From an uncultured bacterium (GTDB lineage Bacteria; Cyanobacteriota; Vampirovibrionia; Gastranaerophilales; Gastranaerophilaceae), in assembly GCA_903868125.1 (NCBI GenBank), contig CAIPUE010000015.1:1-64000 (forward strand): DNA of 64,000 nucleotides, read 5' to 3'. Positions 57,584 through 61,789 of this stretch are shown here, piece by piece. Below the pieces are notes generated by a model. It saw only the letters and a list, made by a program, of their open reading frames with translations, was not told the DNA's origin and ran no database searches. The position numbers and the translations under genes are program-made. Numbering within the stretch: position 1 is the first letter of the stretch; each line of letters starts with the position of its first letter.

Positions 57584-57626
57584 ACATTATTTTGGCTAAA
57601 ACTGACAAATCTATAGGATTTTGTCC

Positions 57627-58062: not shown

Positions 58063-59523
58063 TTAATAATTGTACCTGTTATTTCCCCAATCTTCATTTG
58101 AAACCATTCTTCCAAGATTTTTTTTAGCTGTTTTCCAGTATTCTTTAATATAAGTTTCAATCCAAAAAGAATATTTCATTTTTTCTATTTCTTCAATAGT
58201 TTCAAATGCACGAAATTTATACTTAGTTTCACCATTAGGTTTTTTAACGTCTTTATAAAATTTCGGATTGTTATTGTTGAAAAATTCTGTAAAAGTTATG
58301 TAATCAATTATTGCTCCTTCAAAATTAGAATTTGCTAATTTTTCAATTCTTCTAAGGCAAATATTTATCAAGACGGCATCTTTAAAATTAGTTTTATTTA
58401 AAATTGCGTCAAAAAATTCTGCATTTGTCAAGATTGCTCTTTCAAAATTTGCATTTGTTAAATCTGAACTTCTAAGCCTTGCATCTTCTAATAAGCATTT
58501 GCAAAAATTAAGCCCCTGTAAATTTGAAGATATAAAACCTGCCCCTCTTAAATTTATTTCACCTAAATCTTTAGCCTCACTTAAATCTTTATTATGTATT
58601 TGTATGGGGCTTACATAGTAATCATTTATAAAAAACCATTTCCTGTACAAAGGTAAAAAAGCAACTTTAAGTGACATCAAATTCTCTTTATAGTTTGAAG
58701 TTTCTCTAAGTTCATTTTCCTTTTTATTTTCAATTTCTTTATAAACTGTAGATTTATACACTGCATTTGAACGTCGCGTTGTTTTTAGTTTAATCTTATT
58801 ATTAAGATTGTCGTATTCATGGTTTAGTTCTCCTAAAGTTTCTTTGCAAATTCTCTTTACTGTTTTATCAGTATTGTTTATTAATATTGTAAAAATAAGA
58901 TTAATAGAGTTTTTTGCACAGGCATTTTGCTTATAGAACTGGTCAATAAAATCTTTTTCATCTAAATATTTTTTATTTGTATTTATCTCATTATATTTAA
59001 CAAAGGAATTAAGAGCTTTAATAGCACAGCATTTAGCTTCTATATTATTTTCATCTATTTTTTTTGTTAATGCTAAAAAACTTTCCTCAATGTTTTTGTT
59101 TAATTTAAATCTTTGCTCTTCCCAAAATTTAATATATGCCCACACAAGCCCTGCTATAGTTCCTAATGCAATCAAATTATGGCTTATAAATTGTTCAACT
59201 TTTGTTAAGTTTAATAAGAAAATCTCATTCAAAATATAGAAATTAATAAAGAATAATGATTTTTTTATAAAAATCAGAATCCAAGAATATTTTAATAAAA
59301 CTAATCCTATTAAAAAGAAAAGGACTGGCATTTTATACTTAAGCAAAAACCTCTTAAATTTAGCTATCCCAAAATAAATATAATATAAACATTTATAGTA
59401 ACGGTTTATTAAAAAAATTGAAACTTTAGATAGTGGTTTAAAAAAACAAATAAAAGTTATTATTCCAACTAAAATTAATAAAGTGGCAAAAAATGTTAAT
59501 ATAACTAAATTATCATTATTCAT
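58063..59523 (-). CDS. Membrane protein with pentapeptide repeats
   Basis: 486 residues. Three hydrophobic stretches near the N-terminus (about 8-28, 66-90, 108-135) are followed by a charged coiled region and, at about 325-430, pentapeptide repeats (NLRGAGFISSNLQGLNF, ARLRSSDLTNANFERAILTNAEFFDAILNKTNFKDAVL) that form a right-handed beta helix. Such domains mediate protein contacts or mimic DNA; the membrane anchor argues for contacts. A divergent promoter region shared with the nuclease gene carries the Xre operator-like motif. Confidence 0.7.
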   Translation of the reverse strand: MNNDNLVILTFFATLLILVGIITFICFFKPLSKVSIFLINRYYKCLYYIYFGIAKFKRFLLKYKMPVLFFLIGLVLLKYSWILIFIKKSLFFINFYILNEIFLLNLTKVEQFISHNLIALGTIAGLVWAYIKFWEEQRFKLNKNIEESFLALTKKIDENNIEAKCCAIKALNSFVKYNEINTNKKYLDEKDFIDQFYKQNACAKNSINLIFTILINNTDKTVKRICKETLGELNHEYDNLNNKIKLKTTRRSNAVYKSTVYKEIENKKENELRETSNYKENLMSLKVAFLPLYRKWFFINDYYVSPIQIHNKDLSEAKDLGEINLRGAGFISSNLQGLNFCKCLLEDARLRSSDLTNANFERAILTNAEFFDAILNKTNFKDAVLINICLRRIEKLANSNFEGAIIDYITFTEFFNNNNPKFYKDVKKPNGETKYKFRAFETIEEIEKMKYSFWIETYIKEYWKTAKKNLGRMVSNEDWGNNRYNY

Positions 59524-59679: not shown

Positions 59680-59685
59680 TATAAT
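59680..59685 (+). promoter_or_regulatory. -10 box 6 nt before the nuclease start
   Basis: TATAAT ends 6 nt before ATG 59692. The 10-bp palindrome ATGATATCAT (59684-59693) overlaps both. Confidence 0.45.
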
Positions 59686-59691
59686 GATATC

Positions 59692-60480
59692 ATGAAGTTT
59701 AAATTTTTAATAATTTTATTCTTGAATATTTTTATTGCTCAAAATGTTATGGCACAACAAATTTTGCCTGCGGATATCCAAAGACACACCCAAACGATTT
59801 ATGCCCCAACAACAGGAGAAGTCGGCAAAACTTATTTTTATTGTCAGAATGGTAATAAATGTTCAACTGAACAAGTTGTCAGAGAATATTATAAAAATAA
59901 GGACTATTCTGTTATGCGTGCGGAGTATGCGTTCTGGAAAGGAATGTTTATACTCACTTTTTTAGATGAACTTTACCCTGCAAATCACTATACATCTTAT
60001 GGCAAAACAGGCGTCTTTCATGATATGGCACTTTATAAAACTCAAGAAGAGGATTTGATAAAAAAATGTGCCTATATAAAAAATACTGATTTAAAAGAAT
60101 TTATAAATTCACAAATTAAAAAACATGAAGCTGGTGCATATATAAGAGACCTTGATGAGTGGGAAGTTGAAAGTTACAAGAATCCGACTGAATATTTCAA
60201 ATCACCAATTGTACAGGAACTTTTGATAAGAATTAATAATAAAACTTTTTATAAAGTAGTAAATAAGATTTTGCAGGATAGAAAAAATAATACGGTTGGG
60301 ACTCCTGATTATATTGTTTGGAATAAAAAAGAAATGATTTTTGTAGAAGTAAAACGAAAAAATGAGAAATTAAGCGAAGACCAAATCGGCTGGGGTGAAT
60401 TTTCAATACAAAATAAAATTTCGTATAAAGTTGTTAGAGTTGAAGGTCAAAAACTTCCGACTTTCAATGTCAAACCTTGA
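59692..60480 (+). CDS. FAN1-like VRR-NUC nuclease with signal peptide
   Basis: 262 residues. A signal peptide (FKFLIILFLNIFIAQNVMA, cleavage before QQILP) leads into a sequence like the C-terminal part of FAN1-type nucleases: VVREYYKNKDYSVMRAEYAFWKGMFILTFLDELYP, then VRR-NUC motifs GTPDYIVWNKKEMIFVEVKRKNEKLSEDQIGW, in which PD and E-V-K are the PD-(D/E)XK active site. Known VRR-NUC proteins are intracellular repair or phage enzymes, so export is unusual. Two Cys (YCQNGNKC) may form a disulfide. The end KLPTFNVKP is encoded by the repeated boundary sequence. Export is inferred from the signal peptide. Confidence 0.78.
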   Translation: MKFKFLIILFLNIFIAQNVMAQQILPADIQRHTQTIYAPTTGEVGKTYFYCQNGNKCSTEQVVREYYKNKDYSVMRAEYAFWKGMFILTFLDELYPANHYTSYGKTGVFHDMALYKTQEEDLIKKCAYIKNTDLKEFINSQIKKHEAGAYIRDLDEWEVESYKNPTEYFKSPIVQELLIRINNKTFYKVVNKILQDRKNNTVGTPDYIVWNKKEMIFVEVKRKNEKLSEDQIGWGEFSIQNKISYKVVRVEGQKLPTFNVKP

Positions 60481-60668
60481 TACACTTATGTCAATGGGGT
60501 CTTTTCCGGACATTTGAAGTGAGTTTCGACCGCCTGTGTTTTAGGTTCTCTGTCGCGAGGTTTCGAACCTGCGACCCTTTTATTTGTTTTTACATTAACA
60601 CTATGGCTCTCTATCACTGGATTTGCAAGTTTTTTATCAAATTTATTTCCTTTCGTATCATTTCAACA
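60450..60668. repeat. Island boundary module A
   Basis: It contains the AACTTCCGACTTTC block (60450-60482), a 52-bp left block (60495-60546), a core with a tRNA T-arm-like hairpin (GTCGC...AGGTTTCGAACCT..GCGAC, 60552-60575), and a 77-bp right block (60592-60668). The left and right blocks recur at 61868-61919 and 61964-62040. Confidence 0.85.
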
Positions 60669-60676
60669 TAAATATC

Positions 60677-60742: not shown

Positions 60743-61789
60743 ATGACACTTACCAAAAGACAATATAAAATATTTGATTATATCCAAGAAAACCAATCTG
60801 TTAAAAGACTGGATATTGAAAAATATATTCAATCCTTAGATGAAAATGTTTCGAAAATTACTGTAATAAGAGATTTAGATGCGTTATTAAAAGAAAAACT
60901 TATCAAAAAATCGGGGCAAGCTCGTAGCATAACTTATTTCCCTATTAGCGATAATGAACTTCTCCGAAAATATAACGTAGAAGAATATTTTTCAATTGAA
61001 ACTGACAAAAGAAAAATAAAGTATCAAAGCTTTAATTTCAACATTTTTACAAATTTCAAAGATGTTTTTTCTGAAGCAGAGCTAGAAGAACTTAAACAAA
61101 CAAACAAAATTTTTGTTGAAAAAATTAAGAAATTAACTCCAATAGCCCTAAAAAAAGAGTTTGAGAGGTTAATGATTGAACTTAGCTGGAAATCCTCTCA
61201 AATTGAGGGTAATACCTATTCATTACTTGATACTGAAGTCTTGATTAAAGATAATATTGAGGCTAAAGGTCATAAAAAAGAAGAAGCGATTATGATTTTG
61301 AATCACAAAAATGCTTTGGAATATATTTTTAAAAATAGAGCTTATTTTAAAATTCTTACAAGAGCAAAAATCGAAGAATTACACGCAATTTTGACGAAAG
61401 ATTTAGGCGTTGAAAAAGGTTTAAGAAAAACTCCGGTCGGAATTGTTGGAACGAATTATAAACCGCTTGATAATCAGCATCAAATAAAAGAAGCTGTTGA
61501 AAAATTGGTTAAAATAATTAATCAAATGAAAAATCCTGTTGAACAAGCACTTTTTACGGTAATTATGATTTCATATATTCAGCCGTTTGAAGATGGCAAC
61601 AAACGAACCGGAAGAATTTTAGCAAATGCAATTTTGCTTGCAATCAATTATTGCCCGCTTTCGTATAGAAGTGTTGATGAGGCAGAATATAAAAAGGCGG
61701 TTATAATTTTTTATGAAAATAATAGCGTAACTTATTTTAAAGAATTATTTATAGAACAGTTTAATTTTGCGGTAGATAAATATTTTTAA
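60743..61789 (+). CDS. HTH-Fic protein with degenerate catalytic motif
   Basis: 348 residues. An N-terminal winged HTH (KRQYKIFDYIQENQSVKRLDIEKYI, SKITVIRDLDALLKEKLI) precedes a Fic domain. The inhibitory helix motif is intact (SSQIEGNTYS: S-x-x-x-E-G/N), and the catalytic loop reads IQPFEDGNKRTGRIL where active Fic AMP-transferases have HPFxxGNGR. The catalytic His is therefore Gln. Other Fic proteins with QPF exist, so the change may mark a non-AMPylating subfamily. The upstream triple operator suggests self-repression. Confidence 0.85.
   Translation: MTLTKRQYKIFDYIQENQSVKRLDIEKYIQSLDENVSKITVIRDLDALLKEKLIKKSGQARSITYFPISDNELLRKYNVEEYFSIETDKRKIKYQSFNFNIFTNFKDVFSEAELEELKQTNKIFVEKIKKLTPIALKKEFERLMIELSWKSSQIEGNTYSLLDTEVLIKDNIEAKGHKKEEAIMILNHKNALEYIFKNRAYFKILTRAKIEELHAILTKDLGVEKGLRKTPVGIVGTNYKPLDNQHQIKEAVEKLVKIINQMKNPVEQALFTVIMISYIQPFEDGNKRTGRILANAILLAINYCPLSYRSVDEAEYKKAVIIFYENNSVTYFKELFIEQFNFAVDKYF

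Follow-up and report, generated by a model that had tools for sequence, protein, structure and literature searches.

The nuclease gene lies at positions 59692–60480 on the forward strand of the window, by which we mean the whole 64,000-nucleotide stretch of DNA that was analysed. The CDS starts with ATG and encodes a 262-residue protein that we annotate as a predicted exported FAN1-type nuclease, based on the open reading frame, a VRR_NUC domain, a fold match to FAN1 and a paralogue, 57% identical, on another contig of the same genome (G000:C44). A −10 box, TATAAT, lies six bases 5′ of the ATG (59680–59685, forward strand). Upstream and divergent is a gene for a pentapeptide-repeat protein (58063–59523, reverse strand; Pfam Pentapeptide, E 1.4e-11) with N-terminal hydrophobic segments, in line with the divergent pentapeptide membrane protein of the original prediction; downstream are an att-like boundary element and a Fic-family gene. 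Synteny with a congener (G001, 93% identity) breaks off at 57621; past this point come grpE/dnaJ in the congener, compared to genes for HTH, pentapeptide, nuclease, Fic and signal peptidase proteins in the window. Thus, the nuclease lies in a variable region.

The FAN1-type nuclease domain

The sole Pfam domain above its cut-off in the nuclease is VRR_NUC (PF08774), on residues 163–251 (E = 8.9e-11; score 42.3 bits, cut-off 23.8), and the homologues likewise exceed this curated cut-off. With an AlphaFold2 model of the protein built from 19 homologues (mean pLDDT 81), we find that FAN1 outranks everything else in Foldseek, a comparison that the original prediction had proposed as a check: all 23 chains matched at E<0.001 are FAN1, with the human and Pseudomonas proteins ranked first (E 1.8e-9). 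Similarly, VIA-align gives Z scores of 15.9–19.6 for FAN1 entries, compared to 8.1 for the next family, which consists of isolated VRR_NUC domains; for human FAN1 (4ry3) Z is 18.4, with an rmsd of 3.5 Å over 213 residues. Residues 24–258 (59761–60465, forward strand) correspond to residues 772–1014 of human FAN1, based on VIA-align and on hmmsearch, in which a profile from the nuclease family matches FAN1 at the sequence level with an E value of 3.4e-5.

The metal ligands of FAN1 are E834, D960, E975 and K977 (PMC4348246). In the profile alignment, CSTEQV...RAE78 pairs with CSVEEL...HGE834 of FAN1, and GTPD...EVK pairs with GLPD...EVK; the counterpart of E834 is E78 (59923–59925), that of D960 is D206 (60307–60309) and those of E975 and K977 are E219 and K221 of the EVK motif (60346–60354), all on the forward strand. 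These four residues are unchanged in 19 of the 19 sequences of the family, and the nuclease core with a FAN1-like region that had been noted here is confirmed in an exact ORF. We ruled out E176 as the first metal ligand, as it varies in three homologues (L041, L049 and L050) and the FAN1 ligand has its counterpart in E78.

We found neither a SAP nor a TPR domain in the nuclease; there is no Pfam match to either, and FAN1 is covered in its nuclease domain only. Since the fold match is limited in this way, the protein appears to be a FAN1 nuclease domain placed after a signal peptide, and the DNA-binding contacts known for the SAP and TPR domains of FAN1 are missing. Judged from sequence and model, it is a member of the FAN1 nuclease-domain family and not a FAN1 orthologue, which would have SAP and TPR. 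Two cysteines, C51 and C57 (59842–59862, forward strand), are invariant in the 19 sequences and may form a periplasmic disulfide; the pair is consistent with, and is not proof of, a disulfide in an oxidising compartment. Membrane-anchored relatives (see below) keep C57 and lack C51.

A conserved export signal and its start codon

The nuclease domain is preceded by a predicted signal peptide of residues 1–21 (59692–59754, forward strand), with a putative cleavage site between MKFKFLIILFLNIFIAQNVMA and QQ. In the window protein, two basic residues are followed by a hydrophobic core of 12 residues (Kyte-Doolittle 3.0) and by an AxA-type junction, VMA/QQ. All 19 homologues have a 12-residue core with Kyte-Doolittle values of 2.5–3.6, preceded by one or two basic residues, and in most of them Ala precedes the shared [QKRE]Q junction, the exceptions being L045 (Thr) and L049 and L050 (Cys). 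Lipobox and anchor are both absent from the signal-peptide region. The median dN/dS is 0.37 for the signal region and 0.11 for the mature part; faster change with kept properties is the pattern expected of a signal peptide, with the mature domain under purifying selection. The Sec signal peptide claimed in the original prediction is therefore upheld as a prediction, and one that is conserved across the family.

A TATAAT-like box lies within about ten bases 5′ of the start codon in most homologues, and the window has an exact match. The box of L036 is TACAAT; that of L034 lies further upstream and is accompanied by a ribosome-site-like AGGAG. An exact TATAAT 4–9 nt 5′ of the start is found for only 3 of the 55 window ORFs of at least 100 aa. 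A −10 box so near the ATG suggests that a leaderless mRNA could begin at the ATG of the signal peptide, with leaderless translation as a possible consequence.

Distribution and distant relatives

The nuclease is rare and patchily distributed. There are 19 full-length homologues in 18 Gastranaerophilales genomes, all of which retain the signal peptide and the ligands; matches occur in 23 of the 383 genomes of the family (about 6%) and in 13 of 41 genera, and wider sampling of the order and the phylum added no other family with the nuclease. We obtained no match to the protein among 50,697 phage records or among 72,556 plasmid records.

Distant relatives were not found by a single-sequence scan of genome contigs and were found by an alignment-based search, in Micavibrio, Sneathiella, an alphaproteobacterium and Desulforhopalus (L083–L086). 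They are 30–34% identical over the mature region and about 585 aa long, with an N-terminal membrane segment and an extra helical region (the L085 copy is interrupted), and their C-termini are predicted from flanking charges to be cytoplasmic. Their neighbours include a KAP NTPase that also matches PifA (L083), a Fic-like gene (L084) and a WYL regulator with a helicase (L085); of these four relatives, all from Proteobacteria or Desulfobacterota, two adjoin KAP/PifA-like or WYL genes.

A conserved partner gene related to phage head proteins

The original prediction had raised the divergent pentapeptide protein as a possible partner or immunity protein. We reject this suggestion, as a homologue of the pentapeptide gene is absent at 18 of the 18 other nuclease loci. 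No conserved immunity gene lies beside the nuclease across the loci, and its sole conserved neighbour is a different gene, located directly 5′ of the nuclease and encoding a phage-head-type protein of 110–146 aa. This partner gene is intact in 13 of the 19 loci, and the gap to the nuclease is 16 nt in 10 of these and 14–42 nt in the others. It is absent from the window, a fragment in L035, truncated in L046 and cut by the contig end in L043; L045 and L050 have no intact copy.

The C-terminus of the partner carries the Phage_Mu_F motif CxxC...HPNCRC (E 4.5e-6 to 2.1e-8, with one of three tested sequences above the Pfam cut-off), and the top viral matches to a model of the partner in Foldseek are minor capsid and head-morphogenesis proteins, all of them weak. 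At the N-terminus is a tag, FTREEIGxMSxxEFxKxExxIxxQLxxxGIP, that recurs in capsid-module proteins of Gastranaerophilales-type phages, with 82% identity over 28 residues in L092 and 37% in L091. On viral contigs, this tag lies at the C-terminus of a 220–228 aa protein, the gene of which is flanked by those for the major head protein and a tail protein, and two copies of the tag are found in a 158-aa protein encoded in that region. The tagged protein of ∼220 aa has no family model match and looks scaffold-like by position and composition, a label that follows from gene position and the shared tag. A related phage with the tag and a MuF protein resides in the bacterium's own genome (C59, C14). 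Based on these motifs, the partner can be read as a chimera of a phage Mu-F zinc-type motif and a tag from phage head-region proteins.

The median dN/dS of the partner gene is 0.12, and the pairwise distances of partner and nuclease are correlated (Mantel r 0.96, a value reached in 0 of 5000 permutations). The two genes thus appear to be a co-evolving pair, with both under purifying selection.

A mobile cassette with phage linkage

Comparison of flanks between genera reveals homology over ∼1.3–1.5 kb with sharp ends (roughly 80–90% in the close group), running from some 200–300 bp 5′ of the partner gene to 0–60 bp 3′ of the nuclease gene. Outside this segment the neighbours differ from locus to locus, and many are housekeeping genes. 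At 5 of 18 loci (L037, L040, L045, L046 and L041), the nuclease gene and a tRNA or tmRNA gene meet 3′ end to 3′ end, no more than 250 bp apart, a placement with a chance probability of about 2e-7 if the loci are assumed to be independent; in addition, tRNA T-arm-like fragments are found at several left ends. We read partner and nuclease, from these comparisons, as a mobile cassette of ∼1.4 kb, often placed at tRNA/tmRNA 3′ ends, of which the window copy appears to have lost the partner. No integrase or recombinase lies beside the cassette at most loci, with fragments in L034 and a piece in L049.

In the window, an att-like boundary element lies 3′ of the nuclease (60534–60674, no strand assigned), made up of an orphan tRNA T-arm fragment (60559), which sits outside any intact tRNA, and a 24-bp sequence, TTTCGTATCATTTCAACATAAATA (60651–60674). 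L033 (9760–9780, reverse strand) and L037 (7881–7901, forward strand) have an identical core of this 24-mer at the left end, in both cases just 5′ of the partner gene; the 24-bp sequence has no match in viral contigs. A second match in the bacterium's own genome (C10, 2 mismatches) lies beside housekeeping genes and looks like chance. The gene that follows this att-like end differs, being a Fic gene in the window and, in other genera, the partner gene; the shared end seems to be a common element end with exchangeable cargo. In L037, a second copy of the right-end sequence of the cassette is found upstream of the left end, at about −787 to −718 from the nuclease start, and this cassette seems to be flanked by direct repeats.

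Fic-family genes lie 3′ of the nuclease on the same strand at four loci: the window (60743–61789), L033 (7108–8193), L034 (1837–2961) and L035 (about 1087–1794). The window Fic protein is only about 25% identical to those of L033 and L035, and it also matches the PADLOC candidates PDC-S04 and SoFic.

There are also direct links to phage genes. A 29-kb IMG/VR contig stops inside a nuclease gene, of which the 3′ end is present, and this gene is convergent with an amidase endolysin gene. Positions beside endolysin genes and near attachment tRNAs are typical for lysogenic-conversion genes. The same viral contig holds a reverse-transcriptase-like gene (L065, 2665–3822), possibly part of a diversity-generating retroelement. 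At two loci (L041, 6640–7608; L047, 6913–7878), a phage gene for a MuF–M23 peptidase fusion adjoins the cassette near a tmRNA; the L041 gene has a leader of about 240 bp that resembles the leader of the partner gene. Similar signal-peptide-bearing proteins adjoin MuF genes in L091 (8616–9122, reverse strand) and L047 (6414–6935, forward strand), and phages of this type seem to carry several secreted accessory proteins.

DISCUSSION

The reading that we favour, tentatively and with somewhat less than even confidence, is that the protein serves lysogenic conversion or defence, as a nuclease that attacks DNA in the periplasm, incoming phage DNA for example. Because in related bacteria its gene travels with a virus-head-derived gene, the nuclease probably works on viral DNA at the envelope, to the harm or the benefit of the virus, and not in DNA repair. 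Once exported via Sec, the mature enzyme would be in the periplasm, with host DNA out of reach, and would cut DNA crossing the envelope, chiefly that of phages as they inject it; the lysogen or host would thereby be protected, by lysogenic conversion or superinfection exclusion. Since export would keep the nuclease from its own chromosome, an immunity protein would not be needed; immunity-free export has been argued likewise for Sec-exported alarmone synthetases (PMC12691689). Indeed, a membrane-placed nuclease, SNIPE, is able to cut phage DNA during injection (PMC13190303).

The probable target of the partner is the phage head in the cytoplasm, with the partner taking part in capsid assembly or disturbing it. 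A more elaborate proposal, which we consider doubtful, is that a phage-derived, two-gene Gastranaerophilales system of ∼1.4 kb hits phages twice, with a FAN1 nuclease in the periplasm and a tag–MuF chimera that enters the heads of the ancestral phages and spoils or hijacks them. Neither nuclease nor partner has a good match to a catalogued defence model in PADLOC (2023 library), in which the best matches, to Cas4 (E 0.003) and JetA (E 0.01), are both partial and weak.

Several observations weigh against a periplasmic barrier. Many phages inject through a conduit, inside which the DNA may be beyond the reach of a soluble enzyme of the periplasm. SNIPE is tied to the membrane and is not exported, and FAN1 makes its contacts with flap DNA through SAP and TPR, which the window nuclease lacks. 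Only one viral contig has the nuclease, at the contig end, and the phage records have none. The link to the partner may be historical only, as the nuclease outlives its partner in the window, in L035 and elsewhere. We hold the barrier proposal at this level because three alternatives stand, a nutrient DNase, a phage-serving role and a role in DNA uptake, and because the absence of SAP and TPR unsettles the substrate preference.

The main rival, which we nevertheless regard as unlikely, is a DNase, secreted or periplasmic, that resembles known extracellular nucleases and breaks down free DNA as a source of nutrients or in the turnover of biofilms. Gut anaerobes encounter much DNA. A signal peptide that has neither lipobox nor anchor would suit such an enzyme, and roles in nutrition and in biofilms are well established for extracellular nucleases (PMC3212620, PMC4733049). 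A general scavenging role fits poorly, however, with a rare and patchy gene in a mobile cassette with a phage-head-type partner, or with an enzyme based on a structure-specific repair domain instead of a robust non-specific DNase fold, and release of the enzyme across the outer membrane is hypothetical.

It is also conceivable, if quite unlikely, that the nuclease is a prophage accessory protein that serves the phage at lysis or spread, for instance by removing released host DNA that traps virions, or in head-linked DNA maturation. The head-type partner, the copy next to an endolysin gene and the MuF–M23 genes adjoining two cassettes all point in this direction. Nevertheless, other phage genes are missing from the surroundings of several loci, a promoter-like box of its own precedes the nuclease gene at most loci, and an enzyme released by lysis needs no signal peptide.

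We consider a part in natural transformation, either processing incoming DNA or blocking its entry, improbable. The genome encodes ComEC, and DNA crosses the periplasm in competent Gram-negatives (PMC3879209), but 10 of 14 control genomes have ComEC too, a wide occurrence compared to that of the nuclease (about 6% of the genomes of the family), and no linkage to competence genes was noticed at the loci examined. The original prediction had also proposed an antibacterial toxin, for which the divergent pentapeptide protein would be the immunity protein. TseV2 and TseV3 show that VRR-Nuc domains can poison a cell from within (PMC9635880), but the pentapeptide gene is missing from the 18 other nuclease loci, no conserved immunity gene takes its place, and the protein lacks a delivery domain, without which Sec export offers no route into the cytoplasm of another cell; we view this idea as very improbable. 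Finally, we reject as extremely improbable an ordinary cytoplasmic repair nuclease with a misplaced start codon and no signal peptide, for although FAN1 is normally a repair enzyme and the window protein has an in-frame Met20, most homologues lack this obvious alternative start, the properties of the signal peptide are maintained despite sequence change, and the −10 box that most homologues have no more than about ten bases before the upstream start makes translation from downstream of the signal peptide, which had been named as grounds for refutation, unlikely.

The phage linkage is the main information added to the original prediction. The nuclease family is known; what is new is its setting, with predicted export and an unusual phage-linked two-gene module. 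We found no description of an exported FAN1/VRR-Nuc enzyme in the open-access literature searched, the coverage of which was incomplete. The VRR-NUC protein of a Synechococcus paper in which signal peptides are also mentioned (PMC7464499) is a different one, from a phage operon, and it is other proteins that have the signal peptides. If the nuclease is active in the periplasm, the range of FAN1/VRR-Nuc enzymes would widen from DNA repair and T6SS toxins to include the cell envelope, and theirs would be the second enzyme fold, after the GIY-YIG of SNIPE, to be stationed at the entry point of phage DNA. The phage-head-type partner may provide a way to tell head-protein fragments that are weapons from those that are passengers, in a common and little-studied gut lineage.

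Comparison with known systems places the nuclease among several partial likenesses. It resembles FAN1 (human, and PaFAN1 of Pseudomonas; PDB 4ry3, 4r89 and 5y7g) in domain fold and in the four metal ligands, but differs in having a signal peptide and no SAP or TPR, at about 18% identity. The T6SS effectors TseV1–4 (PMC9635880) are likewise VRR-Nuc proteins outside DNA repair and are related to FAN1/PaFAN1; they are delivered by a PAAR-like domain and encoded next to DUF3396 immunity genes, whereas the window nuclease has a Sec signal, and neither a PAAR-like domain nor an adjacent immunity gene was found for it by Pfam and by comparison of loci. Like SNIPE (PMC13190303), it would be an envelope-targeted nuclease of patchy distribution with a proposed action on entering phage DNA; SNIPE, however, is a membrane-anchored GIY-YIG and DUF4041 protein, neither of which domains was detected in the window nuclease by Pfam scan, and the latter is a PD-(D/E)XK enzyme predicted to be exported. 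The MuF polymorphic toxins of temperate phages (PMC5576092) likewise combine a MuF motif and a nuclease at phage-linked loci, but do so in one fused protein; here the MuF motif and the Sec-signal nuclease are separate, Pfam finds no MuF match in the nuclease itself, and no consistent small immunity ORF follows it. Sec-exported alarmone synthetases (PMC12691689) are likewise toxic-type enzymes at isolated loci without an immunity gene; the enzyme is a different one, and the likeness is one of principle only. The closest outside relatives are the membrane-anchored FAN1-domain proteins of Proteobacteria and Desulfobacterota, in comparison to which the window nuclease has a predicted signal peptide in place of the anchor.
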